Positions 6,825 to 63,287 of a DNA stretch of 64,000 bases are shown one piece after another; the stretch's first letter is position 1; each line of letters opens with the position of its first letter. Below the pieces are notes generated by a model, which was given only the letters and a program-made list of their open reading frames with translations, searched no databases and was not told where the DNA came from. This stretch comes from Oceaniglobus trochenteri (lineage in GTDB: Bacteria; Pseudomonadota; Alphaproteobacteria; Rhodobacterales; Rhodobacteraceae). The stretch spans positions 310,001 to 374,000 of the forward strand of contig NZ_JACNMM010000004.1 in NCBI RefSeq assembly GCF_020529025.1. Reading direction: 5' to 3'. The translations under genes and the position numbers were made by a program.

Positions 6825-6846
6825 CTCTTTCTTGCTTCAAATACTC
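6825..6846 (+). repeat. dispersed intergenic motif, type A, copy 1
   Basis: CTCTTTCTTGC, three variable bases, then AAATACTC. It starts at the first base after the P450 stop codon, in the gene's orientation. The same core recurs at 10543, 42466, 44959 (variant), 54189 and 63266. Confidence 0.75.
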
Positions 6847-6970
6847 ATCGACAGCGCAGCAGGGCGCCTTGGCCGGGAAACGGCACGCCAACCGCGCCAG
6901 GGGCGCTGCCAAAAACATGGAATGTGCCGCAGGCACACCTTCAGGTCAGATACCGCGTCGGGGCGGCCCG

Positions 6971-8164
6971 TCAATTGACGTAGGGCACCGGATCGACGCT
7001 GTCGAAGCCTTCCCGCACCTCGAAATGCAGCCCCGGCGCCGCGCCGCCGCGCACCTTGGCAATCTCCTGGCCGCGCTTGACGGTCTGGCCCTTCTGTACC
7101 GAAATCGATTCCACCCCGGCATAGACGGTCAGGATGTTGTCGGCATGACGCAGCACCAGGATCGGGATCTGGTCGGTGTCGCGGGTGATGGCCGCCACGG
7201 TGCCCGCGTCGGCGGCGCGCACCGGTGATCCGGCACTGGCGGAAATGTCGATCCCGTCGTTCTTGCCCTTCTTGAAGGTGCGGATGATCGGCCCGTTCAC
7301 CGGTAGAACGAAGCGCGCGGTGTCGCTGGCCTTGGTCTTTTCGGCGGCCAGCGCGGGCGAGGGCGGGGTTTCCTTCGGCTTCTCGGCGGTTGCCTTCTCG
7401 TCGGGCAGGGGCTGGGCCGCGCTTGGTGGCACGGGGGCCAGGCTGCCGCTGCCCGGCGGGCTTTGGGGGGGCGGTGCGGGCATGGACAGCGCCACGGGGA
7501 TCAGCAGGAACTGCCCCTCGCGGATCGCCAGATCGCCGCTCAGCCCGTTCCATTCGGCTAGCGCCTTGACCGGAATGCCGTATTGGCGGGCCACGGAATA
7601 GGCGGTCTCGCCGCGCTTGACCTTGTGACGGATCGGCTCCTGCCCTTCGGGGCCGGTGGTGGGGCGCGGCGCGGCGGGCTGGATCACCGAGCTGTCCAGC
7701 GGCGCGCTTGAAATCGTGTCATTGGCGATCGGCGTGCCGACGACAGGGGCCGGGGCGGGCAGGATCGGTCCACTGGTGCGCGCGCCCGTGGCGGGCGAAG
7801 GTTCGGCCACACGGCGCGGCAGGGCGACGATCTCACCCCGGCGCAGCGGAAGATCCTGCGGCATTCCGTTGTATCGCGCCAGTTCGTCGGCCGAAAGGCC
7901 GACCCTTGCGGCGATGGTGTTCACGGTATCGCCGCGCCGGGCCACCACCACCTGGTAGTTGGGGTAGGAAATCACGCCGCGGCTGTCGGGGCGGGGGCGA
8001 GCTTCGGTGCGCACGGCCAGCGCGGCATCCGAGGTGTCGAAGGCATTGCCCAGGTTGTCGCGCAGATCGAAGTCGAAGCCCGAATTGGCACAGGCCCCCA
8101 GCGTCATCAGCGCCGCGCCGCACAAAAGGGCACCAGGCCCGCGAAAGGTGGGAAATACTGCCAT
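6971..8164 (-). CDS. NlpD/DipM-like lipoprotein with two LysM and a degenerate LytM (M23) domain
   Basis: A 397-residue envelope protein. The N-terminus is a lipoprotein signal with lipobox LGAC. Two peptidoglycan-binding LysM repeats follow at about 75-120 and 180-228, joined by Pro/Ala-rich linkers. The C-terminal 105 residues are a LytM fold. The catalytic zinc site is eroded: the usual HxGxD reads NDGID, and the YAH position reads YAG, although LHFEVR is kept. Such proteins (NlpD, EnvC) activate amidases rather than cut peptidoglycan. It lies 112 bases downstream of pcm and surE, the classic surE-pcm-nlpD order, and is probably co-transcribed. An amidase-activator role in division is inferred from the family. 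Confidence 0.88.
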   Translation of the reverse strand: MAVFPTFRGPGALLCGAALMTLGACANSGFDFDLRDNLGNAFDTSDAALAVRTEARPRPDSRGVISYPNYQVVVARRGDTVNTIAARVGLSADELARYNGMPQDLPLRRGEIVALPRRVAEPSPATGARTSGPILPAPAPVVGTPIANDTISSAPLDSSVIQPAAPRPTTGPEGQEPIRHKVKRGETAYSVARQYGIPVKALAEWNGLSGDLAIREGQFLLIPVALSMPAPPPQSPPGSGSLAPVPPSAAQPLPDEKATAEKPKETPPSPALAAEKTKASDTARFVLPVNGPIIRTFKKGKNDGIDISASAGSPVRAADAGTVAAITRDTDQIPILVLRHADNILTVYAGVESISVQKGQTVKRGQEIAKVRGGAAPGLHFEVREGFDSVDPVPYVN

Positions 8165-8276
8165 CTGTCGTCCTCAACTCAATGGCGGCGCCTTCTGTGG
8201 GCGCGCGCCTTACCGCCAAAATCTCCGGGGTCGTTGCCCCGGCCAGTGCCATCCGTCTCGTTTCGTGCGCGCGGAG

Positions 8277-8921
8277 TCAACCGTCCTGTCCCAGGCCTTC
8301 CAGCAGGGGGACGAAGCGCACCGGGCGCAGTTCCTGGTAATCGAAGCCCGTTTCGTGCCGTGTGACCTTGATCAGGCTTTGCACCGTGTCGGACTGTCCG
8401 ACCGGCAGCACCATGATACCCCCAACGCGCAATTCCGCCAAGAGGGGGCCGGGCGGGTCTTCGGCGGCGGCGGTCACGAGGATGCGGTCGAAGGGCGCCT
8501 GTTCGGGCAATCCGTGGCTGCCGTCGGCGGCGAAGGCCGTGACATTGTTCAGCCCCAGCGATTCAAAGACCAGCCGCGCCTCGCGCACCAGGCGCTTGTG
8601 CCGGTCGACGGTGTAGACCCGGCGCGCCAGGTGGCTGAGGATCGCCGCCTGATAGCCCGAACCGGTTCCGATCTCGAGCACCTTGTCGCGTGGGCGGACA
8701 TCCAGCGCCTGGGTCATCAGTCCGACGACCGAGGGCTGGCTGATGGTCTGGCCGCAGGCGATGGGCAGGGGCATGTCGTCATAGGCGCGTTCGGCGAAAA
8801 TGCCGCGCACGAAGGCGCCGCGGTCCACCTTCTCCATGGCGTTCAGGACGCGGCTGTCGGTCAGCCCGCGCGACCGCAGGGCAAAAAGGAACTGCATCTT
8901 GCGTTCCGCGTCATATGTCAT
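8277..8921 (-). CDS. pcm: protein-L-isoaspartate O-methyltransferase
   Basis: A 214-residue SAM-dependent enzyme that methylates isoaspartyl residues to start repair of aged proteins. The family signatures [15 protein letters not shown] and [10 protein letters not shown] occupy residues 30-65, followed by SAM motif [13 protein letters not shown]. The start overlaps the surE stop by four bases (ATGA), so the two are coupled. The usual surE-pcm-nlpD neighbourhood supports the call. Confidence 0.95.
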
Positions 8922-9697
8922 TCGATCGCGGCTTTCAGATCGGCGATGCGATCATGGGCCGTCAGATCCGCGCGCATGGGCGTGATCGAGGTATAGCCTT
9001 CCAGGTTGTCATGGGAATCCGACCCCGGCGCGCTGGCTGTCTGTGCGCCGCCCTTGATCCAGAGGAACTTGCGCCCCGAGGGGGAATGGTGCGGCTGGGT
9101 CGAGAAATAGCTGTCGCGCCGGAAGCCCTGGGTCGAAACCCGCAGCCCCTTGACGGCGCTGCCCGGGACGGGCGGGAAATTGACGTTGTAAAACAGCCGG
9201 TAATCGGCATCGTCCCAGACGCCCTTGTCCAGCAGGGTGCGCAGGGTGGCGGCCCCGGTGCGCGCGGCGGCATCGAAGGGATCTTCCAGATCACGATTGC
9301 CCTCGCCGAAATACTGCGACAGCGCAATGGCCGGCAGACCCTGAAGCGCGGCTTCCATCGCGCCGCCGATGGTGCCGGAATAAAGCGTGTTCTCGGCGGC
9401 GTTGTTGCCACGGTTCACCCCCGAAAGAACAAGGTCGGGGCGTTGCGGCATCACGTCGTAGAGCGCCGCCAGCACGCAATCGGCGGGCGAGCCTTCGGCG
9501 GCCACCCGGCGCGGGCCCAGTTCGGCGATCATCATCGGGTGGGTGTAGCTGATGCAATGGCCGACGCCCGACTGTTCGAAGGCGGGGGCGACGGTCCAGA
9601 CCTCGCCCGTTGGCCCGGCCAGTTCATGGGCGATCTTTTCGAGTACCTTCAACCCCGGTGCATTGATGCCGTCGTCGTTGGTGATCAGAATTCGCAT
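8918..9697 (-). CDS. surE: 5'/3'-nucleotidase SurE
   Basis: Metal-dependent survival-protein phosphatase acting on nucleoside monophosphates. The start at 9697 gives [10 protein letters not shown], with the metal-binding aspartates D8 and D9; an upstream in-frame start would add 31 unconserved residues. The conserved SGVNRGNN and [10 protein letters not shown] segments are present. The 259-residue length is typical. It is the first gene of the surE-pcm pair (four-base overlap), with the NlpD-like gene downstream. Confidence 0.95.
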
Positions 9698-9817
9698 GCC
9701 TTGCCCCTTGTCCGTTGTGACTTCATTAGGGGACGGGGGCCTTTGCGGCAAGCGGGGGAGCGCCCCTTTCGGGCACCGGGGTGCCCTCAAGGTGCGCTGT
9801 TGCCACGGTTGCGCGGA

Positions 9818-10474
9818 TCAGGGCGCGAACTGCGTCAGGAGGCGGGCAGCTTCGTCACCGGGCGCGGCAAGCGCGGTGCGGTCTTCGCCCGGAAAGAAGC
9901 GGGCGCGCAGGGCGGTGGGCATCGGCTGTGGCGCAAGGATATGGACCCGGGGGCCGATGGTTTCGGTTTCGCGCTGCCAGCTTTGCGCAAGGGCGATCTG
10001 GGCCGCCTTGCTGGCGCCGTAGCTGGCGAAGAATTTCTGACCCATGCGCGGATCGTCGAAGAACAGCGCCTGCCCGGCAGGGGCGGCCAGCAGCAGCGGC
10101 GCCACCATGGGGATCAGCGTTGCCGTCGCCGTGGCATTGGTGGCCAGGGATTTTGCCCAGTCCTTGGCGTCGAGGTGGCTGGACGGGGTCAGGGGGGCGG
10201 CATGGATCGCCGTATGCGCCCAGAGATCGACGTGCCCCCAGCGGTCATGCACCGAGCGGCAGAGATGCGCCATGGCCCCGGCATCGTTGATGTCGAGGGG
10301 GGCGAGGGTGGCAGTGCCGCCCGCGGCCTGGATTTCGTCGTCCAGTTCCTCAAGCGCGCCGGTGGTGCGCGCCACGGCGATGATGTGGTGCGTTTCGGCC
10401 AGCGCCTTGGCCAGCGCGGCACCCAGGCCGCGCGAGGCGCCGGTGATGAGGGCAATTTTGGTCATGGATGTCAC
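9818..10474 (-). CDS. short-chain dehydrogenase/reductase
   Basis: A 218-residue classical SDR with the Rossmann dinucleotide motif TGASRGLG near residue 11 and the YxxxK catalytic pair in SYGASKAA. It probably uses NADP(H), judging by the Arg in the glycine loop; the substrate is unknown. The chain is slightly short for the family, ending soon after the LTQFAP tail. It lies downstream of purF on the same strand, separated by about 100 bases that hold a type A motif and a long hairpin, so it may be transcribed on its own or by read-through. Confidence 0.85.
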   Translation of the reverse strand: MTSMTKIALITGASRGLGAALAKALAETHHIIAVARTTGALEELDDEIQAAGGTATLAPLDINDAGAMAHLCRSVHDRWGHVDLWAHTAIHAAPLTPSSHLDAKDWAKSLATNATATATLIPMVAPLLLAAPAGQALFFDDPRMGQKFFASYGASKAAQIALAQSWQRETETIGPRVHILAPQPMPTALRARFFPGEDRTALAAPGDEAARLLTQFAP

Positions 10475-10505
10475 TTCAGGCGGTTGCGCGGGAGGCGGGT
10501 GAGGG

Positions 10506-10541
10506 CGCCCCGGTCGAAAATCGGGATTTTCGCCCGGGGCG
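10506..10541 (-). terminator. long imperfect hairpin between purF and the SDR gene
   Basis: CGCCCCGG (10506-10513) pairs with 10534-10541. After one mismatch, CGAAAAT (10515-10521) pairs with ATTTTCG (10526-10532), leaving a four-base loop. This 15-pair stem follows the type A motif downstream of purF. There is no clear T tract, so it could be a processing or stabilising hairpin rather than an intrinsic terminator. Confidence 0.5.
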
Positions 10542-10542
10542 T

Positions 10543-10564
10543 GAGTATTTTCGGCAAGAAAGAG
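10543..10564 (-). repeat. dispersed intergenic motif, type A, copy 2
   Basis: On the minus strand: CTCTTTCTTGC, CGA, AAATACTC. It begins about ten bases after the purF stop codon, in purF's orientation, and is followed by the 10506-10541 hairpin. Confidence 0.75.
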
Positions 10565-10573
10565 GGGCGGGCG

Positions 10574-12040
10574 TCATTCGGCCGCGAGGGTGAAGCCCTT
10601 GTCGATCATGTCGGAGGGGGCGACCGGGTATTGCCCCGAGAAACAGGCATCGCAATATTGCGGTGACTTCGGGTTGCGGCCCTTTTTTTCGCCCACGGCA
10701 CGGTAGAGCCCGTCAAGCGAGATGAACCGGAGGCTGTCGACCTTGAGGTGATCGCGCATCTGCTCGGCGCTCATGTGTGAGGCGAGGAGCTTTTCGCGCT
10801 CGGGGGTGTCGACGCCGTAAAAGCAGGGCCAGGCGGTGGGCGGAGAGGCGATGCGGAAATGCACCTCGGCCGCGCCGGCATCGAGGATCATCTCGCGGAT
10901 CTTGATGGAGGTGGTGCCGCGCACGACGGAATCGTCCACCAGGATCACCCGCTTGCCCTTGATCAGCGCGCGGTTGACGTTGAGCTTCAGGCGCACACCC
11001 ATGTTGCGGATCTGTTCGGTGGGTTCGATGAAGGTGCGGCCCATGTACTGGTTGCGGATGATCCCCATGGCGTAGGGAATGCCGCTTTCCTGGCTGTATC
11101 CGATGGCGGCGGGGGTGCCGGAATCGGGCACGGGGCAGACGAGATCGGCCTCGACCGGGGCTTCGCGCGCCAGTTCCACGCCGATGGCGCGGCGGGTTTC
11201 ATAGACGCTGCGTCCGCCCAGAATGCTGTCGGGGCGCGAGAAATAGACATGTTCGAAGATGCAGAACCGGGGTTTCTGGGGCGCGAAGGGGCGGTGGCTT
11301 TGCACCTTGCCGTCCTCGATCACCACCATCTCGCCGGGTTCGACTTCGCGTTCGAAGCGGGCGCCGATGATGTCGAGCGCGCAGGTCTCGCTGGACAGCA
11401 CCCAGCCGTCGCCAAGACTGCCCAGCACCAGCGGGCGCACGCCCAGCGGATCGCGCACGCCGATCAGCTTGGTCCGGGTCATGGCGACGATCGAGAAGGC
11501 GCCTTCGACCCGGCGCAGGGCGTCCTGCATCCGTTCGGGCACCTTGCGCTGAAGCGAGCGGGCCATCAGGTGGATGATGCATTCGCTGTCGCTGGCCGAC
11601 TGGAAGATCGAGCCGGCGCCGATCAGCTCGCGTCGCAGGGCGACGGCATTGGTGATATTGCCGTTATGGGCGATGGCGGCACCACCCATGGAGAATTCGC
11701 CGAAGAAGGGCTGCACGTCGCGAATCTGGGTGTTGCCCTTCGATCCGGCGGTGGAATAGCGCACATGCCCGATGGCCAGGGGGCCGGGCAGGGTGTCCAT
11801 CAGCGACTGCTTGGTGAAGTTGTCGCGCACGTATCCGAAACGGCGGGCGCTGTTGAAGCCCTGTTCGGCGTCGTGGCTGACGATGCCGCCGGCCTCCTGG
11901 CCGCGGTGCTGCAGGGCATGCAGGCCAAGCGCGACGAAATTGGCCGCGTCGGCCACCCCCGTCACACCGAAGACGCCGCATTCCTCCTTCAGCTTGTCAC
12001 TGTCGAAATCGAATGGGTGGGCAGGGGGCATGTCGGGCAT
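10574..12040 (-). CDS. purF: amidophosphoribosyltransferase
   Basis: First committed enzyme of purine synthesis: converts PRPP and glutamine to phosphoribosylamine. A propeptide of about 20 residues precedes the N-terminal nucleophile in EECGVFG (C21), as in the self-processed B. subtilis-type enzyme. The glutaminase domain spans about 21-250. The PRTase domain has the PRPP loop VILVDDSVVRGT near residue 365. The C-terminal YCDACFSG cysteines match the iron-sulfur-binding type. Its 488 residues are normal. cvpA, often beside purF, lies 2.9 kb away on the same strand. Confidence 0.96.
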   Translation of the reverse strand: MPDMPPAHPFDFDSDKLKEECGVFGVTGVADAANFVALGLHALQHRGQEAGGIVSHDAEQGFNSARRFGYVRDNFTKQSLMDTLPGPLAIGHVRYSTAGSKGNTQIRDVQPFFGEFSMGGAAIAHNGNITNAVALRRELIGAGSIFQSASDSECIIHLMARSLQRKVPERMQDALRRVEGAFSIVAMTRTKLIGVRDPLGVRPLVLGSLGDGWVLSSETCALDIIGARFEREVEPGEMVVIEDGKVQSHRPFAPQKPRFCIFEHVYFSRPDSILGGRSVYETRRAIGVELAREAPVEADLVCPVPDSGTPAAIGYSQESGIPYAMGIIRNQYMGRTFIEPTEQIRNMGVRLKLNVNRALIKGKRVILVDDSVVRGTTSIKIREMILDAGAAEVHFRIASPPTAWPCFYGVDTPEREKLLASHMSAEQMRDHLKVDSLRFISLDGLYRAVGEKKGRNPKSPQYCDACFSGQYPVAPSDMIDKGFTLAAE

Positions 12041-12140
12041 GGGCGCGCGCTCCGAATCCTTTGGGCTGTTGGGCCATCACATAGTGGGTCTGGCGGGCGG
12101 TGTCACCCAAGGATCACGTTTCGCCGCGTTGCAGTGCCCG

Positions 12141-12734
12141 CTAGGGCCTCAGCACTGGCCAAAGCGAGGCCACCAGAAGCACCGCCATCGTCCAGTTGAA
12201 GGCGCGCAGGCGGGCCGGATTGGTGAGGATGCGCCGCATCTGCCGCCCCGTGACCGTCCAGAGCGAGATCGCCGGCAGGTTTATGCCGCCAAAGACCAGG
12301 GCGACCAGCGCAATGGCCGTCAGGGTTTGCGAGGGGGCATAGGCCGAGGTCGCGGTCAGCGCCATGGCCCAGGCCTTGGGGTTTACCCACTGGAAGGCGG
12401 CGGCCTGCCAGAAGGTGATCGGCTGCCCCTCGGCGCGGGTCGGATCGGGCGGGGCGGCATGTGCGATCTTCCAGGCCAGATACAGCAGGAAGACGACCGA
12501 CAGCACCTTCAGCACCAGGTGCACCACGGGGAAGGCGCGAAACACCCCCTGCAACCCGACCCCGACCAGCAGGACCATGATGACGAATCCCAGTGCCACC
12601 CCCATCATGTGCGGCAGGGTGCGCCGCAGCCCGAAATTGGCCCCCGATGCCATGAGCATCAGGTTGTTGGGCCCCGGCGTGATGGACGAGACAAGGGCGA
12701 AGGCCGCAAGGGCGGGAAGAAGATCATTGGTCAT
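12141..12734 (-). CDS. LysE/RhtB-family amino-acid exporter
   Basis: A 197-residue inner-membrane protein with about six hydrophobic segments. The LysE signature near the N-terminus is SSITPGPNNLML. The start at 12734 gives MTNDLLPALAAF; upstream in-frame codons belong to the antisense of the neighbouring regulator. Family members export amino acids or homoserine lactones; the substrate cannot be assigned. It is divergent from an Lrp/AsnC regulator, and the 72-base gap contains a near-perfect palindrome, so control by that regulator is likely. Confidence 0.9.
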   Translation of the reverse strand: MTNDLLPALAAFALVSSITPGPNNLMLMASGANFGLRRTLPHMMGVALGFVIMVLLVGVGLQGVFRAFPVVHLVLKVLSVVFLLYLAWKIAHAAPPDPTRAEGQPITFWQAAAFQWVNPKAWAMALTATSAYAPSQTLTAIALVALVFGGINLPAISLWTVTGRQMRRILTNPARLRAFNWTMAVLLVASLWPVLRP

Positions 12735-12767
12735 CGCGCAATGATCTGCCAAAGCGGGCGCATTGAA

Positions 12768-12785
12768 ATTGCGAAATTCCGCAAT
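12768..12785. promoter_or_regulatory. candidate Lrp-type operator
   Basis: ATTGCGAAATTCCGCAAT is an 18-base palindrome with only one mismatched pair, centred in the divergent gap between the LysE exporter and the Lrp regulator. Lrp/AsnC proteins bind such A/T-centred palindromes. Autoregulation with ligand-dependent control of the exporter is inferred. Confidence 0.55.
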
Positions 12786-12806
12786 CTGGCCCATGATGCG
12801 CAACAG

Positions 12807-14758: not shown

Positions 14759-14800
14759 CATCTTTGGTCTTAAAAATACCCCGCCGGAGGCTCCCGCAGG
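14759..14800 (+). repeat. dispersed intergenic motif, type B, copy 3
   Basis: CATCTTTGGTC, TTA, AAAATACC, then CCGCCGGAGGC and TCCCGCAGG. It lies between cvpA and the small charged gene, on the strand opposite to both. The trailing GCCGGAGGC block is shared with copies at 23801 and 54189. Confidence 0.75.
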
Positions 14801-23800: not shown

Positions 23801-23841
23801 CATCTTTGGTCAACAAATATCCCCGCCGGAGGCTCCGACGG
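23801..23841 (+). repeat. dispersed intergenic motif, type B, copy 4
   Basis: CATCTTTGGTC, AAC, AAATATCC, then CCGCCGGAGGC and TCCGACGG, on the strand opposite to pyrC and pyrE. Read on the minus strand, its GACCAAAGATG end lies 14 bases before the pyrE start codon, next to GGAAGGGCGG. Confidence 0.75.
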
Positions 23842-35356: not shown

Positions 35357-36265
35357 ATGAAGACCATCCCGCAGTCCATCGACGCCGTTCGAACGCTCCT
35401 TGCCGAGCAGGATTACGTCTGCGACCGCGCGTTGGCGGTGGTCACCTTCCTCGCGCTCAAACTGGGCCGGCCGCTGTTCCTTGAAGGCGAGGCCGGCGTG
35501 GGCAAGACCGAGATTGCCAAGGCCATCGCGGCGGGGCTGGGGCGGCGGCTGATCCGCCTGCAATGCTATGAGGGGCTGGACGCGGCAAGCGCCGTCTACG
35601 AATGGAACTTCGCCGAACAGATGATCGCCATCCGCACCGCCGAGGCAACAGGCGGCGCCGACCGCACTGCCCTGAAATCCGAACTCTTCTCCGAGGACTA
35701 CCTCATCGCTCGCCCGTTGCTTCAGGCCATGCGCCCGCAACCGGGCGGTGCACCGGTGCTGCTGATCGACGAACTCGACCGCACCGACGAACCGTTCGAG
35801 GCCTTCCTGCTCGAAGCGCTGTCCGACTTCGCCGTCACCATCCCCGAACTGGGCACCATCGCCGCGCCCGAACCGCCCATCGTCATCCTCACCTCGAACC
35901 GCACCCGCGAGGTGCACGATGCCCTCAAACGCCGCTGTCTCTATCACTGGGTCGACTACCCGACCTTCGACCGCGAGATCGAGATCCTCAAGGCCCGCGC
36001 CCCGGAAGCCGGCGAAACCCTCAGCCGCGAGGTGGTGGCCTTCATCGCCGCCCTGCGCACCGAAGACCTGTTCAAGAAGCCGGGCGTCGCCGAAACCATC
36101 GACTGGGCCAAGTGCCTGCTGGCGCTCGACGCGATGGAACTCTCGCCCGAGGTCATCGCCGACACCCTGGGCGCGATCCTGAAATACCAGGACGACATCC
36201 AGAAGATCCAGGGCAGCGAGGCGGCCCGCCTTCTGGCCTCGGTCCGCGCGGAACTCTCCCGGTGA
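35357..36265 (+). CDS. coxD: MoxR-family AAA+ ATPase (CoxD-like)
   Basis: A 302-residue AAA+ chaperone-like ATPase. Walker A is GEAGVGKT at 44-51, Walker B is in VLLIDELDRTD near residue 137, and the sensor 1 segment is LTSNRTREVHD. The start at 35357 follows GGAGG with good spacing. In cox clusters, CoxD with the VWA protein CoxE is needed to insert the copper-sulfur or molybdenum centre into the hydroxylase; here it precedes coxE by about 90 bases. I use coxD because of the context; the protein alone says only MoxR family. Confidence 0.85.
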   Translation: MKTIPQSIDAVRTLLAEQDYVCDRALAVVTFLALKLGRPLFLEGEAGVGKTEIAKAIAAGLGRRLIRLQCYEGLDAASAVYEWNFAEQMIAIRTAEATGGADRTALKSELFSEDYLIARPLLQAMRPQPGGAPVLLIDELDRTDEPFEAFLLEALSDFAVTIPELGTIAAPEPPIVILTSNRTREVHDALKRRCLYHWVDYPTFDREIEILKARAPEAGETLSREVVAFIAALRTEDLFKKPGVAETIDWAKCLLALDAMELSPEVIADTLGAILKYQDDIQKIQGSEAARLLASVRAELSR

Positions 36266-36268
36266 TCC

Positions 36269-36333
36269 CATCTTTGGTCGGAAAATATCCTCGGGGGGAG
36301 TCGCGCAGCGACGGGGGGCAGACAGCCCCCCAT
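36269..36333 (+). repeat. dispersed intergenic motif, type B, extended copy 5 with two hairpins
   Basis: CATCTTTGGTC, GGA, AAATATCC, a G-rich link, then hairpin 1 (GTCGC-GCA-GCGAC at 36300-36312) and hairpin 2 (GGGGGGC-AGACA-GCCCCCC at 36313-36331). It starts four bases after the moxR stop. A nearly identical 65-base element lies inverted at 60096-60160. Confidence 0.85.
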
Positions 36334-37690: not shown

Positions 37691-39424
37691 ATGCGCCAAT
37701 CACTGAGAGCGACGACAGCCATCCTTGCCAGCCTGGCCCTGACCGTGCCCACGGTCCTGCCGGCGCAGGATTCCACGGAACCCGCCATCGAATGCCCCGA
37801 AGGCGCCGAACAACCCTGCGAGGCCGTGAAAGATGCGGTCGAGGGCCTGTTGAACGGCACCGCCGAGGAACCGGCAGCCGATGAGGAAGCAGCCGGGGAA
37901 CCCGAAGCCGCGCCCGAAGAGGCCCCCGAGGCCGAGGTGGCGGAAGAAGCTGCTCCCGAAGCAGAGGCAGCGCCGGAAGCTGAGCCCGCGCCCGAAGCCG
38001 AAGCCGAAGCCGAGCCCGAGGCGGAAGCTGAACCCGAGGCCGAACCTGCGCCCGCCGCCGAAGCGGAGGTGAGCGAACAGCCCGCAACCGAAGAAGCCGC
38101 CCCCGCCGAGGAGAAGGCGACCGAGGAGGAAGCGGTCGAGGAACGCGAGGCCGCGCCCGAGGAGGTCACCGAGACCAAGACCGACGAAGAAGTCGTTCCC
38201 GAAGCCTCGGCCAAGCCGAAAGAGAAACCCGCGAAGGCTGACAAGGCCCAGAAGGGCGACAAAGGCCAGAAGGGCGACAAGGCCCCCAAGGCCAAGCCCG
38301 GCAAGAAGGCCAAGGAAGCCGAAGCCGCAGCCGCAGCCAAGGCCGAGGCTGAAACGGCAGCAGAGGTCGAGGCCGAAGTGCCCGCAGCCGCTGCTGCCGC
38401 GACAACCACCGATGCCGATGCCACAAGCGCGGAAACCACCACCGAAACCGTGACCGAGGAAACCGCGCGCTCTTCGGATCAGGATTTCGAAGGCAAGATC
38501 AACGCCGAAGCCGGTGCGGAAGCCAAGAGCGACGATGGCGGAGGCCTCTCGAAGTTCGAAAAGGCGCTTCTGGTGGGGGCCGGTGCACTGGCGGTCGGTG
38601 CGATCCTCAAGGGCAACCGCGAAGTGGTCAGCACCTCGCAGGACCGCCTTGTCGTCACCGGCAAGGACGGCGAACTGGAGGTGCTGAAGGATGACGACGC
38701 ACTTCTGCGTCAGCCTGGCAGCGAAATCCAGACCCGCACCTTCGACGACGGTTCGACCCGCACCGTCACCACCCGCGCCGATGGCAGCCAGGTGATCACC
38801 GTGCGTGACGCCGACCTGCGCGTGCTGCGCCGTGTGCTGGTGCGCACCGACGGGACCGAGGTTTCGCTGATCGACGATACGGTGAAATCCGAACCCGTCG
38901 ACGTGTCGACCCTGCCCGAAGCCGCGCCCGCCGTGCGTGCCGATACCGGGGCGGAAGACCTGCGCGCCGCGCTGGAACGTCAGGGTGCCTTCGATCGGCG
39001 CTTCTCGCTGTCGCAGATCCGCCAGATCAGCGAGGTGCGAAAGCTGGCCCCGGCCATCGAGGTGGACACGATCACCTTCGCCACGGGTTCGGCCGCGATC
39101 CAGCCGGAACAGGCCCGCAGCCTGACCGATCTTGGCCGCGCCATCGCCCGGATGATCGACCGCAACCCGAACGAGGTGTTCCTGGTCGAAGGCCATACCG
39201 ATGCCGTCGGGTCGGCCAGCACCAACCTGATCCTGTCCGACCGCAGGGCCGAATCCCTGGCGCTGGCACTCAGCGAATACTTCGACGTGCCGCCAGAAAA
39301 CCTCGTGGTGCAGGGCTATGGTGAAAGCGATCTGAAGGTTGCCACCGATGGCGCCGAACAGGCCAACCGCCGCGCCGGTGTGCGCCGGATCACCGGTCTG
39401 ATGCAGGTGGCCGGGCTGAACTGA
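37691..39424 (+). CDS. OmpA-family protein with long acidic low-complexity region
   Basis: A 577-residue envelope protein. I chose the ATG at 37691 (MRQSLRATTAILASL signal, AAGGGAA upstream). Residues about 50-200 are Glu/Ala/Pro repeats, then a Lys-rich stretch with QKGDKGQKGDK near 190-205, then Ala-rich sequence. A hydrophobic, glycine-rich segment lies at about 291-310. Residues 455-575 are an OmpA peptidoglycan-binding domain with VEGHTDAVGSASTN. There is no N-terminal barrel, so it is not a classical OmpA porin. It sits between coxE and xdhC with its own strong terminator, and nothing ties it to CO or molybdenum metabolism beyond position. Confidence 0.85.
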   Translation: MRQSLRATTAILASLALTVPTVLPAQDSTEPAIECPEGAEQPCEAVKDAVEGLLNGTAEEPAADEEAAGEPEAAPEEAPEAEVAEEAAPEAEAAPEAEPAPEAEAEAEPEAEAEPEAEPAPAAEAEVSEQPATEEAAPAEEKATEEEAVEEREAAPEEVTETKTDEEVVPEASAKPKEKPAKADKAQKGDKGQKGDKAPKAKPGKKAKEAEAAAAAKAEAETAAEVEAEVPAAAAAATTTDADATSAETTTETVTEETARSSDQDFEGKINAEAGAEAKSDDGGGLSKFEKALLVGAGALAVGAILKGNREVVSTSQDRLVVTGKDGELEVLKDDDALLRQPGSEIQTRTFDDGSTRTVTTRADGSQVITVRDADLRVLRRVLVRTDGTEVSLIDDTVKSEPVDVSTLPEAAPAVRADTGAEDLRAALERQGAFDRRFSLSQIRQISEVRKLAPAIEVDTITFATGSAAIQPEQARSLTDLGRAIARMIDRNPNEVFLVEGHTDAVGSASTNLILSDRRAESLALALSEYFDVPPENLVVQGYGESDLKVATDGAEQANRRAGVRRITGLMQVAGLN

Positions 39425-42465: not shown

Positions 42466-42487
42466 GAGTATTTTTGGCAAGAAAGAG
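42466..42487 (-). repeat. dispersed intergenic motif, type A, copy 6
   Basis: On the minus strand: CTCTTTCTTGC, CAA, AAATACTC, opposite to the genes. It lies in the 114-base gap between the VOC gene and coxL, 70 bases before the coxL start. Confidence 0.75.
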
Positions 42488-44958: not shown

Positions 44959-44977
44959 GAGTATTTGGACAAAGAAG
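44959..44977 (-). repeat. dispersed intergenic motif, hybrid copy 7
   Basis: On the minus strand: CTTCTTTGTCC, then AAATACTC. It combines the type B left arm (TCTTTGTC) with the type A right arm and lies opposite to the genes, between coxL and coxM, 40 bases before coxM. Confidence 0.6.
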
Positions 44978-45017
44978 AAGCCAGGGGTTTTGCCCCGTCC
45001 GGCACGAGGAGAACGAC

Positions 45018-45869: not shown

Positions 45870-46985
45870 TTACTTGGGCAGCAGCACACCTTCGATCACG
45901 TGGATCACGCCGTTTGACTGGTTCACATCGGCAATCGTGACTTCGTACGCGTTCCCGCTTTCATCGAAGATATATACGGCGCCCGAGGGCGTGACCTTGG
46001 CCGAGAGGGCATCGCCCGAGACGGCCTGGAAGTGGTAGAAACCGTCGCGCGATTTCTTCGCCTGGGCCACGATGTCCTGGGCCGACCATTTGCCTGAAAC
46101 CACGTGGGCGGTCAGGATCTTGGTCAGCATGTCCTTGTTTTCGGGCTTGAGCAGGGTTTCGACGGTGCCGGCGGGCAGGGCGTCGAAGGCGGCGTTGGTG
46201 GGGGCGAAGACGGTGAAGGGGCCTTCACCTTTCAGGGTTTCCACCAGGCCTGCGGCCTTGACGGCGGCGACGAGCGTTGTGTGATCGGCCGAGTTCACGG
46301 CGTTGTCGATGATGTCCTTGTCGGCGAACATCGGTGCGCCGCCCACCATGGGGTTGTCACCCTCGGCCATCTTTTCATCGGCCATTTCGATCGTGGTCTC
46401 CATCGCGTCGGCCTTCTTTTCGCCGGGCAGAAGCACCTTGTCGATCACGTGGATCACGCCGTTCGACTGTTTCACGTCCGCGATCGTCACCGTGGCCACG
46501 CCACCGGTTTCGTCGGTCAGGGTGATGATGTCGCCATCGTATTTCGCCTGAAGCGTGCAGCCGCCAAGAGTGGGAACCGGGTGGTTGCCGCCGTCATCGT
46601 CGATCATCCCGCGGATGGCATCGGACATGGCATTGGCGCCGACGACATGGCAGGTCAGGATCTTGGTCAGCATGTCCTTGTTTTCAGGCTTGAGCAGGGT
46701 TTCGACGGTGCCGTCGGGCAGGGCGTCGAAGGCGGCGTTGGTGGGGGCGAAAACGGTGAAGGGGCCTTCGCCCATCAGGGTTTCCACCAGGCCGGCGGCC
46801 TTGACCGCGGCCACCAGGGTGGTGTGATCGGCCGAGTTCAGGGCATTTTCGACGATGTTCTTGTCGGCGAACATCGCGGCGCCGCCCACCATGGGGTTGC
46901 CGGTTTCGGCGTGGCTATCGGCAAATGCGGGGGCTGCAGCCAGGGTGGCAATCAGCGTGGTGGTCTTAAGGATCGAGCGCAACAT
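45870..46985 (-). CDS. secreted protein with two fasciclin (FAS1) domains
   Basis: A 371-residue exported adhesion-type protein. The signal peptide MLRSILKTTTLIATLAAAPAFA ends near residue 22. Two FAS1 domains follow, each with the H1 motif GPFTVFAPTNAAF and the H2 motif NGVIHVI before VLLP. The first ~80 residues of the two domains are almost identical at DNA level, while the second halves differ, including the IVAQAKKSRDG insert in domain 2. GGAGG lies eight bases upstream. FAS1 proteins bind matrices or other surfaces; the ligand is unknown. Confidence 0.92.
   Translation of the reverse strand: MLRSILKTTTLIATLAAAPAFADSHAETGNPMVGGAAMFADKNIVENALNSADHTTLVAAVKAAGLVETLMGEGPFTVFAPTNAAFDALPDGTVETLLKPENKDMLTKILTCHVVGANAMSDAIRGMIDDDGGNHPVPTLGGCTLQAKYDGDIITLTDETGGVATVTIADVKQSNGVIHVIDKVLLPGEKKADAMETTIEMADEKMAEGDNPMVGGAPMFADKDIIDNAVNSADHTTLVAAVKAAGLVETLKGEGPFTVFAPTNAAFDALPAGTVETLLKPENKDMLTKILTAHVVSGKWSAQDIVAQAKKSRDGFYHFQAVSGDALSAKVTPSGAVYIFDESGNAYEVTIADVNQSNGVIHVIEGVLLPK
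46111..46355 (-). repeat. fasciclin domain internal repeat, copy in domain 2
   Basis: A 245-base segment encoding NPMVGG through DMLTKIL of the second FAS1 domain. It aligns without gaps to 46654-46898 and differs at only scattered positions, most of them in its 3' coding third. Confidence 0.85.
46654..46898 (-). repeat. fasciclin domain internal repeat, copy in domain 1
   Basis: Partner of 46111-46355; same length and reading frame. The spacing between copies (543 bases, 181 codons) equals one FAS1 repeat unit. Confidence 0.85.
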
Positions 46986-54188: not shown

Positions 54189-54231
54189 CTCTTTCTTGCC
54201 CGAAATACTCCCGCCGGAGGCGTCCCGCAGG
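54189..54231 (+). repeat. dispersed intergenic motif, type A with GCCGGAGGC tail, copy 8
   Basis: CTCTTTCTTGC, CCG, AAATACTC, then CCGCCGGAGGC and GTCCCGCAGG. It lies 28 bases after the Ppx stop, in gene orientation. The tail after the type A core is the one found in type B copies, which shows the two types are one family. Confidence 0.8.
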
Positions 54232-57894: not shown

Positions 57895-57994
57895 GAATCC
57901 TCCGGCGTTGCTGCGCCGGAGTGGGACATTGCCGCGCGCGGTTTGTCAAACCTCGGGCGCCGGGCAGGGGGCGGAAATTTCGTGATGCGTCATG

Positions 57995-58354
57995 TCACGA
58001 AGGGTGATGGGGCGCCTTGTCCAGCGCGGCCTGCACCTTCTTGGGCAGCCCCGCGCGGATCAGATCGTAGGAGGTTTCGACCCGGTGGCGCAATTCGTCC
58101 TCGGCCAGGCCCTCCCATGTCAGCAGGACCCAGGAGCGGTGGATATAGGGCGCCTTCACGGCTAGCCCCACCTCGATCAGCATCTGCGCGGTTTCCGTGT
58201 CGGCGCATTTCACCGACACGCCTAGATCCTGTGCGCCCACCAGCGCGAACATCTTGTCGCCGACCTTCCAGGCGTCGTGGCCCCCGCCCCAGGGGTCGGA
58301 GCATGTGGCGCCGGGCAGCGCCTTGCAGATGCGGGTGAGGTTGGAGCGGTCCAT
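57995..58354 (-). CDS. MmcQ/YjbR family protein
   Basis: A 119-residue protein of the YjbR fold (cyanobacterial/Gram-positive MmcQ-like, DNA-binding-like). DPWGGGHDAWKVGDKMFAL near residue 20 and YIHRSWVLLTWEG are the family pattern. The start at 58354 gives MDRSNLTRICKAL and normal length; upstream in-frame starts extend into antisense. It is divergent from cysS, separated by about 225 bases. Function is unknown. Confidence 0.8.
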   Translation of the reverse strand: MDRSNLTRICKALPGATCSDPWGGGHDAWKVGDKMFALVGAQDLGVSVKCADTETAQMLIEVGLAVKAPYIHRSWVLLTWEGLAEDELRHRVETSYDLIRAGLPKKVQAALDKAPHHPS

Positions 58355-58579
58355 GCCGGGCAGGGTGCCAGCGGTTGCCTTGCCTGGCAACGAAAAGCGC
58401 GCACCTTGCCGCGCCTTCGGGGTGGTGGTAGACATGCCGCCATGACCAAGAACGCACATATCGCCCGCTGTATTACCCGCTGACATATCCGCGCGGGCCG
58501 GTCTTTCTGTTTTCAATCACATCCGATGTTGCTAAGCCCGCGGCAACGCAGCACCACTGCGCACCACGAGGGACGGCAC

Positions 58580-60019
58580 ATGACCGAGATACGCCTGCAC
58601 AACAGCAAGACACGCCGCCGCGAGACGTTCACGCCGATCGACCCCGAAAACGTGCGGATGTATGTCTGCGGCCCCACCGTCTATGACCGGGCGCACATGG
58701 GCAACGCGCGCCCCGTCATCGTTTTCGACGTGCTGTTCCGCCTGCTGCGCCAGATCTACGGCGCGGCCCATGTCACCTATGTGCGCAACATCACCGACGT
58801 GGACGACAAGATCAACGCCCGCGCCAAACAGACCGGGCGCAGCATCGGCGAGATCACCGACGAAACCGCCCGCTGGTATCTTGACGACATGGCGGCGCTG
58901 GGCAACCTGACCCCGACCCATACCCCCCGCGCCACCGGCTATGTCGCGCAGATGATCGCGATGATCGAGGGGCTGATCGCCTCGGGCCACGCCTACGAGG
59001 CCGAGGGGCATGTCCTGTTCTCGGTCGAAAGCTATGCCGACTACGGCGCGCTTTCGGGGCGCAGCGTGGACGACATGATCGCCGGTGCCCGGGTCGAGGT
59101 GGCCCCCTACAAGCGCGATCCGATGGATTTCGTCATGTGGAAGCCCTCGCCTGAGGATCTGCCCGGATGGGACAGCCCCTGGGGGCGGGGCCGTCCGGGT
59201 TGGCATATAGAATGCTCGGCCATGGCGGATGACCTGTTGGGGCAGGATTTCGACATTCACGGTGGGGGCAATGACCTGATGTTCCCGCACCACGAGAACG
59301 AGATCGCCCAAAGCCGCTGTGCCCATCCGGGCAGCGATTTCGCCCGCATCTGGATGCACAACGAGATGCTGCTGGTGGAGGGGAAGAAGATGAGCAAGTC
59401 GCTCGGGAACTTCTTCACCGTGCGCGACCTGCTGGAGCGGGGCATTCCCGGCCCGGTGATCCGGCTGGTGTTCCTGTCGACCCATTACGGCAAGCCCATG
59501 GACTGGACCGACGCCAAGCGCGCCGAAGCCGAGGCGACCCTGCGCCGCTGGGCCGCGGTGCTGCACCAGCACGGCTATTGCGCGCGGATGGTGGCGGCGC
59601 TGAAGGCCTCGGGCGACTGGCGCCCCGATGCCGAGTTTCTGGGCGTGCTGGCCAACGACCTGAATACCCCCGGCGCCCTGGCCCGTCTGCATGTGCTGGC
59701 CAAGGGGCACACGGCCCCCGCCCTGGCGGGGCTGGCCCATGGGCTGGAGCTTTTGGGGCTGGTGTCGGACTGGGACGCGCTGGGCGATCTGGCGGGGGTT
59801 GCGCCTTCGGACAGGGCCTATCCGGCCTGGGTGGAGGGTGTCGTCGAGAGGCTGCTGATGCAGCGCCAGGCGGCGCGCGCGGCAAAGGACTGGGCCGAGG
59901 CCGACCGGTTGCGCGACCTGCTGAACGCGGCAGGCGTGCAGGTGAGCGACGTGGGCGGGCAGGCCACATGGGTGCCCGGGCCCGGATTTGACGCTACGGT
60001 GCTGGAGGGGATGCAGTGA
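58580..60019 (+). CDS. cysS: cysteinyl-tRNA synthetase
   Basis: Class I aminoacyl-tRNA synthetase of 479 residues. The N-terminal zinc/cysteine site is [16 protein letters not shown], with the HIGH-equivalent HMGN. The zinc ligands include C in WHIECSAM. The KMSKS loop reads [11 protein letters not shown] near residue 275. The start at 58580 gives [13 protein letters not shown] after AGGGACGG; the longer frame starts lack support. An inverted extended type B motif follows. Confidence 0.95.
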
Positions 60020-60095
60020 ACCTCTGCGACCAGTCGCCCGAGTGCGCCCGCCATAGTGCCCAAAGGAATGGCGCGCCCTTCGGCGCGCGGGGAAA

Positions 60096-60160
60096 GGGGG
60101 GCTGTCTGCCCCCCGTCGGCTGCGCCGACTCCCCCCGAGGATATTTGACGACCAAAGATG
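60096..60160 (-). repeat. dispersed intergenic motif, type B, extended copy 9 with two hairpins
   Basis: On the minus strand it reads CATCTTTGGTC, GTC, AAATATCC, then hairpin 1 (GTCGGC-GCA-GCCGAC, plus-strand 60115-60129) and hairpin 2 (GGGGGGC-AGACA-GCCCCCC, 60096-60114). It matches 36269-36333 almost base for base. Hairpin 1 has one extra G-C pair, with both sides changed together. It ends 10 bases before the cimA start. Confidence 0.85.
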
Positions 60161-60170
60161 GGGGGCGGGG

Positions 60171-61787
60171 GTGACAGAGCGGCTTTACCTTTACGACACC
60201 ACGCTGCGCGACGGTCAGCAGACCCAGGGCGTGCAGTTCTCGACGCCCGAGAAGCTGCGCATTGCAGCGATGCTGGATGCCATGGGCGTGGATTACATCG
60301 AAGGCGGCTGGCCCGGGGCGAACCCGACGGATTCGGCCTTCTTTGACGAAGCACCCCGCATGCGCGCCAAGTTCACCGCCTTTGGCATGACCAAGCGATC
60401 GGGGCGGTCGGCCGGCAACGACGATGTTCTGGCGGCGGTTCTGAATGCCGGCACGCCGGCCGTTTGCCTGGTGGGCAAGACCCACGAGTTTCACGTCACC
60501 ACCGCGCTGGGCATACCGCTGGCCGAGAATGTCGAGAACATCGCAGCCTCGGTTGCACACCTGGTGGGGGAAGGGCGCGAAGCGCTGTTCGATGCCGAGC
60601 ATTTCTTTGACGGCTATGCTGCCAACCCCGGCTATGCGTTGGAGTGTCTGCGCGCCGCCCATGATGCCGGGGCGCGGTGGATCGTGCTGTGTGACACCAA
60701 CGGCGGCACACTGCCAGCCGAGATCGGGCGGATCGTGACCGAGGTAATCGCCGCCGGCATTCCCGGCGATCGGCTGGGCATCCATACCCACGACGACACG
60801 GGCAATGCCGTGGCGGGGACCCTTGCGGCGGTGGATGCGGGGGTGCGCCAGGTGCAGGGCACGCTGAACGGGCTGGGTGAGCGGTGCGGCAATGCCAACC
60901 TGACCAGCCTGATTCCCACCCTCCTGTTGAAGGAACCCTACCGCTCGAACTTCGACATCGGGGTGAGTGAGGACGCGCTGGCCGGGTTGACGCGGGGCGC
61001 GCGGATGCTGGACGACATCCTGAACCGGGTGCCACAGCGCTCGGCCCCCTATGTCGGCGCCTCGGCCTTTGCCCACAAGGCCGGGCTGCACGCCAGCGCG
61101 ATCCTGAAAGACCCCACCACCTATGAGCATATCGACCCGGGCCTTGTGGGCAACGCCCGCATCGTCCCGATGAGCAACCAGGCCGGGCAGTCGAACCTGC
61201 GCGCCCGGCTGGCCGACATGGGGATCGAGGTGGCGCCGGGCGATCCGGCCCTGGGGCGCATCCTGGACGACGTGAAGGCCCGCGAGGACCAGGGGTTTTC
61301 CTATGACAGCGCCCAGGCCAGCTTTGAGCTGATCGCGCGGGCCGCCCTTGGCCAATTGCCCAGCTTCTTCGAGGTGAAGCGCTATCGCGTCAGCGTCGAG
61401 CGGCGCAAGAACAAGTACGACACCATGGTCACGCTGTCGGAAGCGGTGGTGGTGGTGAAGGTGGGCGATCAGAAGATGCTGTCGGTCAGCGAAAGCATGG
61501 ACGAGACGGGCAGCGACCGTGGCCCGGTCAACGCGCTCTCCAAGGCGCTGGCCAAGGATCTGGGCCCCTATCAGGGCTATATCGACGACATGCGCCTGGT
61601 GGACTTCAAGGTGCGCATCACCCAGGGCGGGACCGAGGCCGTGACCCGCGTGATCATCGACAGCGAAGACAGCAAGGGGCGGCGCTGGTCGACGGTGGGG
61701 GTATCACCCAACATCGTCGATGCGTCCTTCCAGGCGCTGCTGGATGCCGTGAACTGGAAACTGGTGCGCGACGGAGCCCGGGCATGA
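60171..61787 (+). CDS. cimA: citramalate synthase
   Basis: A 538-residue HMGL-like enzyme that condenses pyruvate and acetyl-CoA to (R)-citramalate, a threonine-free route to isoleucine. The GTG start follows GGGGGCGGGG and gives MTERLYLYDTTLRDGQQTQG with the catalytic RDG. EGGWPGANPTD near residue 45 and HTHDDTGNAVA are conserved. A C-terminal LeuA dimerisation domain runs from about 390. The length and motifs fit CimA rather than 2-isopropylmalate synthase, though the two families are close. Its stop overlaps the next gene by four bases. Confidence 0.9.
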   Translation: MTERLYLYDTTLRDGQQTQGVQFSTPEKLRIAAMLDAMGVDYIEGGWPGANPTDSAFFDEAPRMRAKFTAFGMTKRSGRSAGNDDVLAAVLNAGTPAVCLVGKTHEFHVTTALGIPLAENVENIAASVAHLVGEGREALFDAEHFFDGYAANPGYALECLRAAHDAGARWIVLCDTNGGTLPAEIGRIVTEVIAAGIPGDRLGIHTHDDTGNAVAGTLAAVDAGVRQVQGTLNGLGERCGNANLTSLIPTLLLKEPYRSNFDIGVSEDALAGLTRGARMLDDILNRVPQRSAPYVGASAFAHKAGLHASAILKDPTTYEHIDPGLVGNARIVPMSNQAGQSNLRARLADMGIEVAPGDPALGRILDDVKAREDQGFSYDSAQASFELIARAALGQLPSFFEVKRYRVSVERRKNKYDTMVTLSEAVVVVKVGDQKMLSVSESMDETGSDRGPVNALSKALAKDLGPYQGYIDDMRLVDFKVRITQGGTEAVTRVIIDSEDSKGRRWSTVGVSPNIVDASFQALLDAVNWKLVRDGARA

Positions 61788-62491
61788 CACCCTTCTTCCA
61801 GTTACACAGCGGGCTGATGCGCGAAGGCCCCGGCACGCCGGACGACGTGCGATGGGCGCTGGATGTGGCAAAGACGCCGCTGCGCGCGCGCATCTGCGAT
61901 GCGGCCTGCGGTCCGGGGGCGGATGCGGTGACGCTGGCGGCCTCGCGCCCGGCGGGATCGGTCCATGCCATCGACAAGATGCGCCATTTCGTAGTGGCCG
62001 CCCGGTCGCGTCTGTCGCAGTTCCCGGCGCGGGTGACGGTGGAACAGGGCGACATGACCGAGATTTCCGGCCCCTACGATCTGATCTGGTGCGCCGGGGC
62101 GCTTTACTTTGTCGGCGTGACCGAGGGGCTGAACGCCTGGACAAGGGCGCTGGCGCCGGGGGGGCGGGTGGCCTTCTCCGAACCCTGCCTGCTGGGCAAG
62201 CCCTCGGGCGCGGTGGCCGAGTTCTGGGCCGAATACCCCGAGATCACCGATTACGACGGGATCGTCGTACGGGTGCGCAAGGCCGGATACCGGGTGCTGC
62301 ACCACCGGATGATCGTCGGCGCCGGATGGGAGGCCTATTACCGCCCCATGCAGGCACGCATCGACCTGCTGCGCCCCACCGCGAGCCCCGACCTGATCGA
62401 GGTGCTGGACGAAGGCCAGCGCGAGATCGACCTCTGGCGCAGCGCCCCCGACGAGATCGCCTATGCCCTGCTGGTGGTCGAGCCCGCATGA
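61784..62491 (+). CDS. class I SAM-dependent methyltransferase
   Basis: A 235-residue methyltransferase with SAM motif I CDAACGPGADAVTLAA near residue 40, a VEQGDMTEI segment and a LAPGGRVAFSE post-motif. The N-terminus FFQLHSGLMREGPG suggests a small-molecule methyltransferase of the UbiE-like type. It overlaps cimA and the next gene by ATGA, so all three are coupled. The substrate is unknown. Confidence 0.82.
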   Translation: MTPFFQLHSGLMREGPGTPDDVRWALDVAKTPLRARICDAACGPGADAVTLAASRPAGSVHAIDKMRHFVVAARSRLSQFPARVTVEQGDMTEISGPYDLIWCAGALYFVGVTEGLNAWTRALAPGGRVAFSEPCLLGKPSGAVAEFWAEYPEITDYDGIVVRVRKAGYRVLHHRMIVGAGWEAYYRPMQARIDLLRPTASPDLIEVLDEGQREIDLWRSAPDEIAYALLVVEPA

Positions 62492-63246
62492 GCGTGCAGG
62501 CCTGCGCCGAGATCGTCCTGAAGGGCGATCCTGACCGGTTTCTTGCGGTCATGGCAGCGCCGCCCGCGGCGCGCCAGGTGCTGTTTCCGCTCTATGCCTT
62601 CAACGTCGAGGTGGCCCGCGCCCCCCAGGTGACGAAGGAACCGATGATTGCGCAGATGCGCCTGCAATGGTGGCGCGACGCCCTGGCCGAGATCGCGGCC
62701 GGGGGCATCGTGCGGCGACACGAGGTCGTGGTGCCCCTGGCCGGCGTGATCGATGCCGAGGGCGCGGCGCGGCTGGGGCGCCTGATCGACGCGCGCGAAC
62801 ACGACCTCGGCGATGAGCCTTTCGCGCAGCGTGGCGACCTGGAACGCTATCTTGGCGACACCGGCGGCACGCTCATGGCGGTGGCGACCCGCGCCCTGGG
62901 CGGCCAGGATGAAGAGCGCGCCCATCTGATCGGCCAGGCCGGGGCGGCGGCGAACTATCTTCTGGCGGTGCCGGCCCTGATCGCCCAGGGGGGGCAGCCC
63001 CTGCCGGGTGAGACCTTGTCTTGCATCCGTGACCTCGCGGGCGAACATCTGGCCTTGCTGGCCGGGGCCAAGGCACGGCCGGTGGCCTCGAAGGCGTTGC
63101 GCCGGGCGGCACTTTCGGCCTGGCGGGCGCGGGGCATCCTGACGCGCGCGCGGCGTGATCCCCAGGCGGTGCTGGACGGCAGGCTTTCGGAATCCGAATT
63201 CGCCCGCCGCGCCAGCCTGCTGAAGGCGCAGATCACCGGGATCTGA
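62488..63246 (+). CDS. squalene/phytoene synthase family protein (NDUFAF6-like)
   Basis: A 252-residue protein of the trans-isoprenyl diphosphate synthase fold, with VLFPLYAFNVEVARAPQVT and MRLQWWRDALAEI, which match complex I assembly factor NDUFAF6. The two DxxxD diphosphate-binding motifs of squalene and phytoene synthases are not preserved: FNVEVAR stands in place of the first. It is therefore probably a non-catalytic assembly factor, by analogy with mitochondrial NDUFAF6. It overlaps the methyltransferase gene (ATGA). Confidence 0.75.
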   Translation: MSVQACAEIVLKGDPDRFLAVMAAPPAARQVLFPLYAFNVEVARAPQVTKEPMIAQMRLQWWRDALAEIAAGGIVRRHEVVVPLAGVIDAEGAARLGRLIDAREHDLGDEPFAQRGDLERYLGDTGGTLMAVATRALGGQDEERAHLIGQAGAAANYLLAVPALIAQGGQPLPGETLSCIRDLAGEHLALLAGAKARPVASKALRRAALSAWRARGILTRARRDPQAVLDGRLSESEFARRASLLKAQITGI

Positions 63247-63265
63247 AGGGCAGGCGCGGGCCCCT

Positions 63266-63287
63266 CTCTTTCTTGCTGAAAATACTC
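63266..63287 (+). repeat. dispersed intergenic motif, type A, copy 10
   Basis: CTCTTTCTTGC, TGA, AAATACTC, 20 bases after the stop of the NDUFAF6-like gene, in its orientation. It lies between that gene and the convergent MFS gene. Confidence 0.75.

Follow-up and report, generated by a model that had tools for sequence, protein, structure and literature searches.

The DNA uptake sequences (DUS) of Neisseriaceae are short repeats whose genome-wide spelling differs by lineage, with two dialects co-existing, and their inverted pairs have been tied to terminators (PMC3630211; here and below, statements on PMC-numbered papers refer to the available part of each text). A spaced motif, GCTTAT(N)5AAGCG, is described in Acidovorax ebreus, where 107 of its 114 copies are intergenic and the count by gene orientation is 44 convergent, 4 divergent and 59 co-oriented (PMC5217627). 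For Rhodobacter sphaeroides, papers on RNase E and PNPase give AU-rich or UCGA patterns, or no motif (PMC6238624, PMC7866481), and other motifs of Rhodobacterales are described in PMC8632094. No word beginning with 'rhodobact' occurs in the available main text of PMC5217627, nor in that of PMC12306157.

The 64,000-nucleotide (nt) stretch of Oceaniglobus trochenteri analysed here (the window) holds copies of a short intergenic element that has its nearest published analogues, among those seen, in the DUS dialects and the A. ebreus motif. Its layout and placement are established, as are its 11 plus 8 fixed bases around a free spacer, the existence of dialects and the persistence of some sites through a change of spelling. 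The element is tentatively read as a 3'-end module of terminator type, assisted by a putative factor that co-evolves with it, a proposed mechanism held with less than even confidence.

With DUS the element shares the short repeat format, a genome-wide spelling that differs by lineage and the co-existence of two dialects (PMC3630211). It is set apart from them by a two-part core (19 fixed bases and a free spacer), a GC-rich flank, an exclusively intergenic position in the sample studied and 21-110 copies per dialect in its own genome. Like the A. ebreus motif it is spaced, intergenic and close to gene ends, while layout and genus are different and dialects are not mentioned for that motif in the available part of PMC5217627. 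Repetitive extragenic palindromes (REP), with the bacterial interspersed mosaic elements (BIME) and REP doublets (REPIN) built from them and the REP-associated tyrosine transposases (RAYT), are, from general knowledge, likewise intergenic, near gene 3' ends, arranged in inverted repeats or pairs and species-specific. The conserved part of the present element is, in contrast, not the palindrome, its copies differ in spacer and flanks, and no RAYT was found in the 8 genomes searched. Intrinsic (Rho-independent) terminators also lie at gene 3' ends and have a GC-rich flank followed by a T-containing stretch; here, unlike in such terminators, a genome-wide 11-mer comes after the T stretch, the flanks are hardly above their shuffles and canonical terminators occur in the same gaps. 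No description of the element came up in the literature searches; most subscription journals lay outside them and an older description is possible.

Layout, copy number and placement

The core is formed by an 11-mer, a spacer of 2-4 free bases and an 8-mer, AAATACTC or AAATATCC, which is often adjoined by the GC-rich flank. Three classes differ in their 11-mer/8-mer pairs: CTCTTTCTTGC/AAATACTC in type A, CATCTTTGGTC/AAATATCC in type B and (C)TTCTTCTTTG/AAATACTC in type C. In the opposite reading direction the flank, often hairpin-capable, comes first and is followed by G-R-R-TATTT, the 2-4 free bases and a purine-rich 11-mer. A sequence-only reading of the window had reported at least ten copies of a single family, too regular for chance. 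The family proved far larger: with up to 2 mismatches allowed, the whole genome (G000; 4,588,933 bases in 33 contigs) holds 110 sites of type A and 85 of type B (80 and 77 of them exact, respectively), besides 21 exact type-C sites. Controls support the initial view: the A, B and C patterns read backwards gave no match in this genome, type A matched none of 100 dinucleotide shuffles of the window and type B gave no match in dinucleotide shuffles either.

The association of the two halves was measured in 904 kb of G000 by a count anchored on the octamer. The cognate 11-mer, at up to 2 mismatches, stands beside 57 of 70 AAATACTC octamers and 28 of 38 AAATATCC octamers; those so accompanied are nearly all intergenic (56/57 and 27/28, respectively), and those without it are mainly genic (12/13 and 7/10). 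The spacer measures 3 bases in 50 of the 57 AAATACTC sites, with 2 bases in 3 and 4 bases in 4 sites, and 3 bases in 22 of the 28 AAATATCC sites, with 4 bases in the other 6. As many as 24 different trinucleotides fill the spacer of the 65 A/B copies in which it has 3 bases, other positions being nearly invariant. Information content is 1.3-2.0 bits at the fixed positions versus 0.2-0.7 at the spacer in an alignment whose sites were selected by regular expression, a selection not made in the octamer-anchored count. Copying, gene conversion or transposition fit this pattern poorly, as they would carry the spacer along, yet it is free between 19 near-fixed bases. The simplest account would be a factor that reads both halves and not the spacer, together with selection or uptake bias; since the 11-mer goes with the 8-mer class within a genome, one factor probably reads both.

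The free spacer is pertinent to two alternatives. Non-autonomous mobile repeats of REP/REPIN type, without known transposase and enriched at gene ends through tolerated insertion, would agree with intergenic copies beside inverted repeats, with inverted pairs, with species specificity and with the several classes per genome. They are nevertheless a quite improbable source, because spacer and most of the flanks are not common to the copies, some syntenic sites persist and Y1_Tnp (PF01797) was absent from the 8 genomes searched, its control matching in 5/14. An origin from REP/RAYT is accordingly disfavoured, and the initial view that the family is not a transposon stands on the missing Y1 transposase and on the free spacer, which argues against simple copying. 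If gene conversion had made the tails of ordinary intrinsic terminators uniform, this would explain the placement at gene ends and a GC-rich flank followed by a short U-stretch; conversion would hardly skip the 3 bases between the homogenised 11 and 8, however, and canonical terminators are not displaced, so that this account is very hard to sustain.

The type-A 11-mer CTCTTTCTTGC occurs 5 times genome-wide without A at +15, compared with 3 for the control, 4 of the 5 being variant elements and 1 a stray; a guide-RNA gene carrying it was rejected on this basis, for type A only. The core itself is not palindromic and the flanks are of several types. On the 8-mer side, the tail GCCGNAGGC that had been described for some copies of both types is found on part of each class (15/47 A, 10/28 B and 5/11 C sites of the 904 kb), AATCC adjoins 14 A and 3 C sites, G-runs adjoin 3 A, 16 B and 2 C, and other sequences are seen at 15 A, 2 B and 1 C. 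Two sites, G000:C6:60954 and G000:C13:547763, keep the flank and GGATATTT with a different 11-mer and are possibly decaying. Rfam 15 had no match at gathering score in the window, and no phage record matched the type-B element of the window taken together with its flank.

Placement was read at the 75 A/B sites of the same 904 kb, an overlap of at most 15 bases with a called gene being counted as intergenic. The gene calls were trained on a large own-genome set, and in the window 19 of 20 products tested matched a Pfam family; with only a 50 kb Ruegeria stretch as training set, the gene finder recovered 11 of 53 annotated stops, and a 464-kb run placed one site within an over-called open reading frame (ORF). 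All 75 sites are intergenic and none lies inside a gene, so the intergenic confinement noticed in the window extends well past it. At least one gene 3' end adjoins 71 of the 75. Convergent gaps hold 37 sites, co-directional gaps 34 and divergent gaps 4, against 12.1, 43.0 and 19.9 expected from intergenic length (chi-square p 5e-15). A stop codon on the 11-mer side is often 0-40 nt away and one on the flank side 20-60 nt, and at co-directional sites the flank side is turned towards the upstream stop in 23 cases and the opposite way in 11 (p 0.058, n=34). That the element acts as a simple roadblock at the end of the gene on its 11-mer side is unlikely: the stop of this gene is often only 0-10 nt off, and a stalled polymerase would exclude the stop codon from the RNA.

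When gaps of 20-600 nt are considered, an element is present in 34 of 82 convergent, 38 of 347 co-directional and 4 of 118 divergent ones. This bias would suit a site for a nucleoid or chromosome-organising protein at convergent gene ends, the meeting place of transcription-driven supercoils, as would the strict two-part core, the near freedom of orientation and the canonical terminators in the same gaps. With such a site, the closeness to stop codons would need a further explanation. The specificity of proteins of this kind is usually conserved inside a genus, yet the dialects change within the genus here, and this role is rather unlikely.

Close pairs (A, B and C sites at most 150 nt apart) face 11-mer to 11-mer in 7/7 cases of the 904 kb, five being 13-17 nt apart and the others 30 and 117. 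Inverted pairs in the relative G003 (G003:C37:88334-88411) and in Oceaniglobus ichthyenteri carry two slightly different 11-mers, ACAGAAATG and ACGAAAATG, one per arm, as if kept from perfect palindromy. The mean fold energy of the flank side is -11.5 to -13.0 kcal/mol across gene classes (42 sites) versus -7.6 for 546 intergenic controls, values that may reflect base composition only since the flank is close to its own shuffles and both sides are equal. An exclusion of canonical hairpin-plus-T terminators by the element was not seen in convergent or co-directional gaps.

Dialects and persistence of sites

Related genomes have the same layout with mostly other 11-mer dialects, some of which are common to sister species. 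In a comparison of 282 listed sites from 19 genomes, by best 10-mer identity in the 11-mer region, sites of the same genome and class agree at 9.39 of 10; the value is 6.75 for different genomes in the same class, 6.71 for different classes of the same genome and 6.56 otherwise, and the highest of 200 label shuffles reached 7.26 where 9.39 is observed. Two or three dialects are found per genome, with a few mixed genomes. The class C spelling occurs 74 times in G002, 39 in G004, 55 in G005 and 21 in G000, and is absent from G001 and G003, which shows that sister species can share or lose dialects and that one genome can hold three.

A merged pattern matched 15 of 61 genomes, some of the single matches being chance-like (the control matched once), and several relatives have private 11-mers. 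The flank plus GRRTATTT pattern, which is blind to the 11-mer, matched 6/6 genomes of the genus and, at family level, 38 of the 61 genera covered, with 0 matches for the controls. Among 385 alphaproteobacterial genomes the shortened flank form was present in 4 of 5 from the family and in 1 of 380 others, by a single match; in this class-wide sample the flank pattern is nearly restricted to Rhodobacteraceae. In a GTDB scan, among the 80 loci listed of at least 118 stretches nearly all are Rhodobacterales going by organism name, and three records among the matches listed are named just Hyphomicrobiales, Pseudomonadota and Alphaproteobacteria metagenome-assembled genomes (MAGs). No recognisable element was found in Thioclava stretches of ~40 kb that are 98.7-99.0% alike. 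The flank pattern is also seen on 62 viral contigs. In 14 of these, which measure 13.6-14.8 kb, the element lies ~1.3-2.1 kb from an end, and these 14 may be gene-transfer-agent clusters with the element behind.

Dialects are also what a DNA watermark would produce, that is, a DUS-like double-stranded recognition site whose receptor prefers the local dialect, with biased uptake or recombination maintaining it and gene ends being merely permissive. Dialects, two of them per genome, and inverted pairs are seen here as described for DUS (PMC3630211), orientation to genes is nearly free, and the watermark accounts for dialects and inverted pairs as well as the 3'-end module does. Its weakness lies in the numbers: there are ~216 copies in 4.59 Mb, compared with 2,245-5,918 DUS per genome, and 0/75 copies inside genes, where DUS are common (PMC3630211). 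Moreover, the first 200 kb of the Ruegeria pomeroyi megaplasmid (NC_006569, 1-200000) hold just 3 elements of the one known host dialect, at 2 loci; all are in the first 50 kb, which carries miaB, metK, trmB and aroA, and no element of this dialect is present in the next 150 kb. A watermark is, on balance, an improbable explanation.

Persistence of sites was assessed by comparing G000 with pieces of G001, G002, G003 and G005 at gaps where blastp orthology, adjacency and orientation agreed, the gene calls of the relatives having been trained on smaller sets. The 136 syntenic comparisons divide into 7 with the element in both genomes, 13 with it in G000 only, 2 in the other only and 114 in neither (Fisher p 1.6e-5). 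Orientation, read from the gap sequences, is kept in all 7 common cases. The relative has the 11-mer spelling of its own genome in six of them (G001 three, G003 two, G005 one), and in the seventh, from G002, the 11-mer is identical to the G000 one, with a different right half. The clearest gap lies behind the cysteinyl-tRNA synthetase gene, where four species have four spellings next to similar flank arms and G002 lacks the element.

Copies within the window

The five type-A positions given by the sequence-only reading are exact. The core CTCTTTCTTGC-TTC-AAATACTC at 6825..6846 (plus strand) follows immediately after the stop codon of a P450 gene in a convergent gap, and the same place in G003 is occupied by a core with the spelling of that genome. 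The type-A core at 10543..10564 (minus) is 9 nt past the stop of the minus-strand gene 10574-12040 and has a long inverted repeat on its AAATACTC side. The one at 42466..42487 (minus) is flanked by two plus-strand genes, its AAATACTC side facing the stop of the upstream gene. The last two are on the plus strand: 54189..54210, after a Ppx/GppA gene, is followed by the right flank R1, CCGCCGGAGGC (54211..54221, plus), and 63266..63287 lies in the convergent gap 63247-63325.

Of the type-B positions, two are exact matches. The core at 23801..23822 (plus), with right flank R1, CCGCCGGAGGC, at 23823..23833 (plus), is flanked by two minus-strand genes, and in G002 the same place is taken by CATCTTTGGTC and a modified right half. 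The core at 36269..36290 (plus) is 3 nt past the stop of gene 35357-36265 and is followed at 36291..36331 (plus) by the right flank R3, made of a G-run, GTCGC-GCA-GCGAC and a G-run ... C-run. A third, at 14759..14781 (plus), is present with a 4-base spacer and AAATACCC, then CGCCGGAGGC. The fourth had to be shifted: its core is 60139..60160 (minus), with the cysteinyl-tRNA synthetase gene (58580-60019) on one side and the HMGL-like gene 60171-61787 on the other, and position 60096 is the start of its flank. This right flank R3 (60096..60138, plus) consists of GGGGGGCTGTCTGCCCCCC, GTCGGC-TGC-GCCGAC and TCCCCCCGA, and similar arms are found in the same gap of G001, G003 and G005, not in G002. 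The supposed hybrid at 44959 is a real site and belongs to the third class, C, with its 21 exact genome copies; the core at 44959..44980 (minus) reads GAGTATTT-GGA-CAAAGAAGAAG on the plus strand, and G001 carries, at the corresponding place, a core in the spelling of that genome. Gene calls agree with the split first noticed in the window, five copies following a stop codon in gene orientation and five lying in the opposite orientation.

Two other repeats of the window are internal to called genes. Positions 46099-46367 and 46642-46910 are 269-base copies, 90% alike and 543 bases apart, that form an internal duplication within gene 45870-46985, and 37855-38400 is a stretch of dense degenerate repeats in the low-complexity coding sequence of gene 37691-39424.

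A putative reader of gene ends

Of the roles first suggested for the family, 3'-end formation and a protein-binding site are the right candidates given the strong gene-end bias, with terminator tests that are mixed or negative. In the mechanism favoured here, each class (GAGTATTT or GGATATTT) would have a trans-acting factor of its own that reads both halves of the element. The factor's preference for the 11-mer would drift, and selection would keep the copies of the genome matched to the factor. Binding at the short U-stretch might help to form or protect the 3' end of a transcript arriving through the flank, and the element may shield the neighbouring gene from antisense read-through.

A number of observations weigh against this mechanism. 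The U-stretch is short, and the flanks are hardly structured when compared to shuffles of their own letters, with a mean z of -0.54 on the flank side and -0.51 on the 11-mer side, the two sides being alike. Canonical terminators are no rarer beside the element, being found in 11/34 convergent gaps with it and 16/48 without, and in 12/38 versus 55/309 co-directional gaps. Orientation has its exceptions: 11 of the 34 co-directional sites are oppositely oriented, and the genome beyond the 904 kb contains at least two close pairs of reversed arrangement (G000:C7:20909/20989 and G000:C24:347699/347767). The 7 common syntenic comparisons derive from just 5 gaps; relatives' elements were recognised there by their own spellings, so that foreign-spelled sites would have been missed and the local-dialect result is partly by construction. 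Dialects are least homogeneous in G015, in G424 and in class A of G026 (two sites), and the one flank pattern that was searched is missing from 23 of the 61 genera of the family. The 8-base half was built into most search patterns, hence its apparent conservation across the family is not independent of them, and this half is changed in G002. Finally, no reader protein was found; the search for a pentatricopeptide reader, with 0 of 11 genomes matched, says nothing either way, as its control likewise matched nowhere.

The mechanism might nevertheless be extended to the whole family, and it is possible, though we would not call it probable, that the elements constitute a recognition code for gene ends. 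Each genome would then have two or three putative sequence-reading factors, each assigned to a right-half class or dialect; their preference would change slowly for GAGTATTT or GGATATTT and fast for the 11-mer. The marks, at hundreds of gene 3' ends, would serve in termination, in protection of the 3' end or in recognition of the DNA, and the whole genome would follow the change of its factor. Dispersed, dialect-bearing intergenic elements are a known kind, and it is the reader that has a real chance of being new.

If this is true, a large bacterial family has a genome-wide cis code that predicts a co-evolving reader whose specificity is legible from genomes. The dialects would represent a natural experiment on the joint change of a trans factor and its numerous sites, and the table of dialects could be used to search for the reader by affinity pull-down. 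The element would also be relevant to the formation of gene ends in GC-rich alphaproteobacteria.

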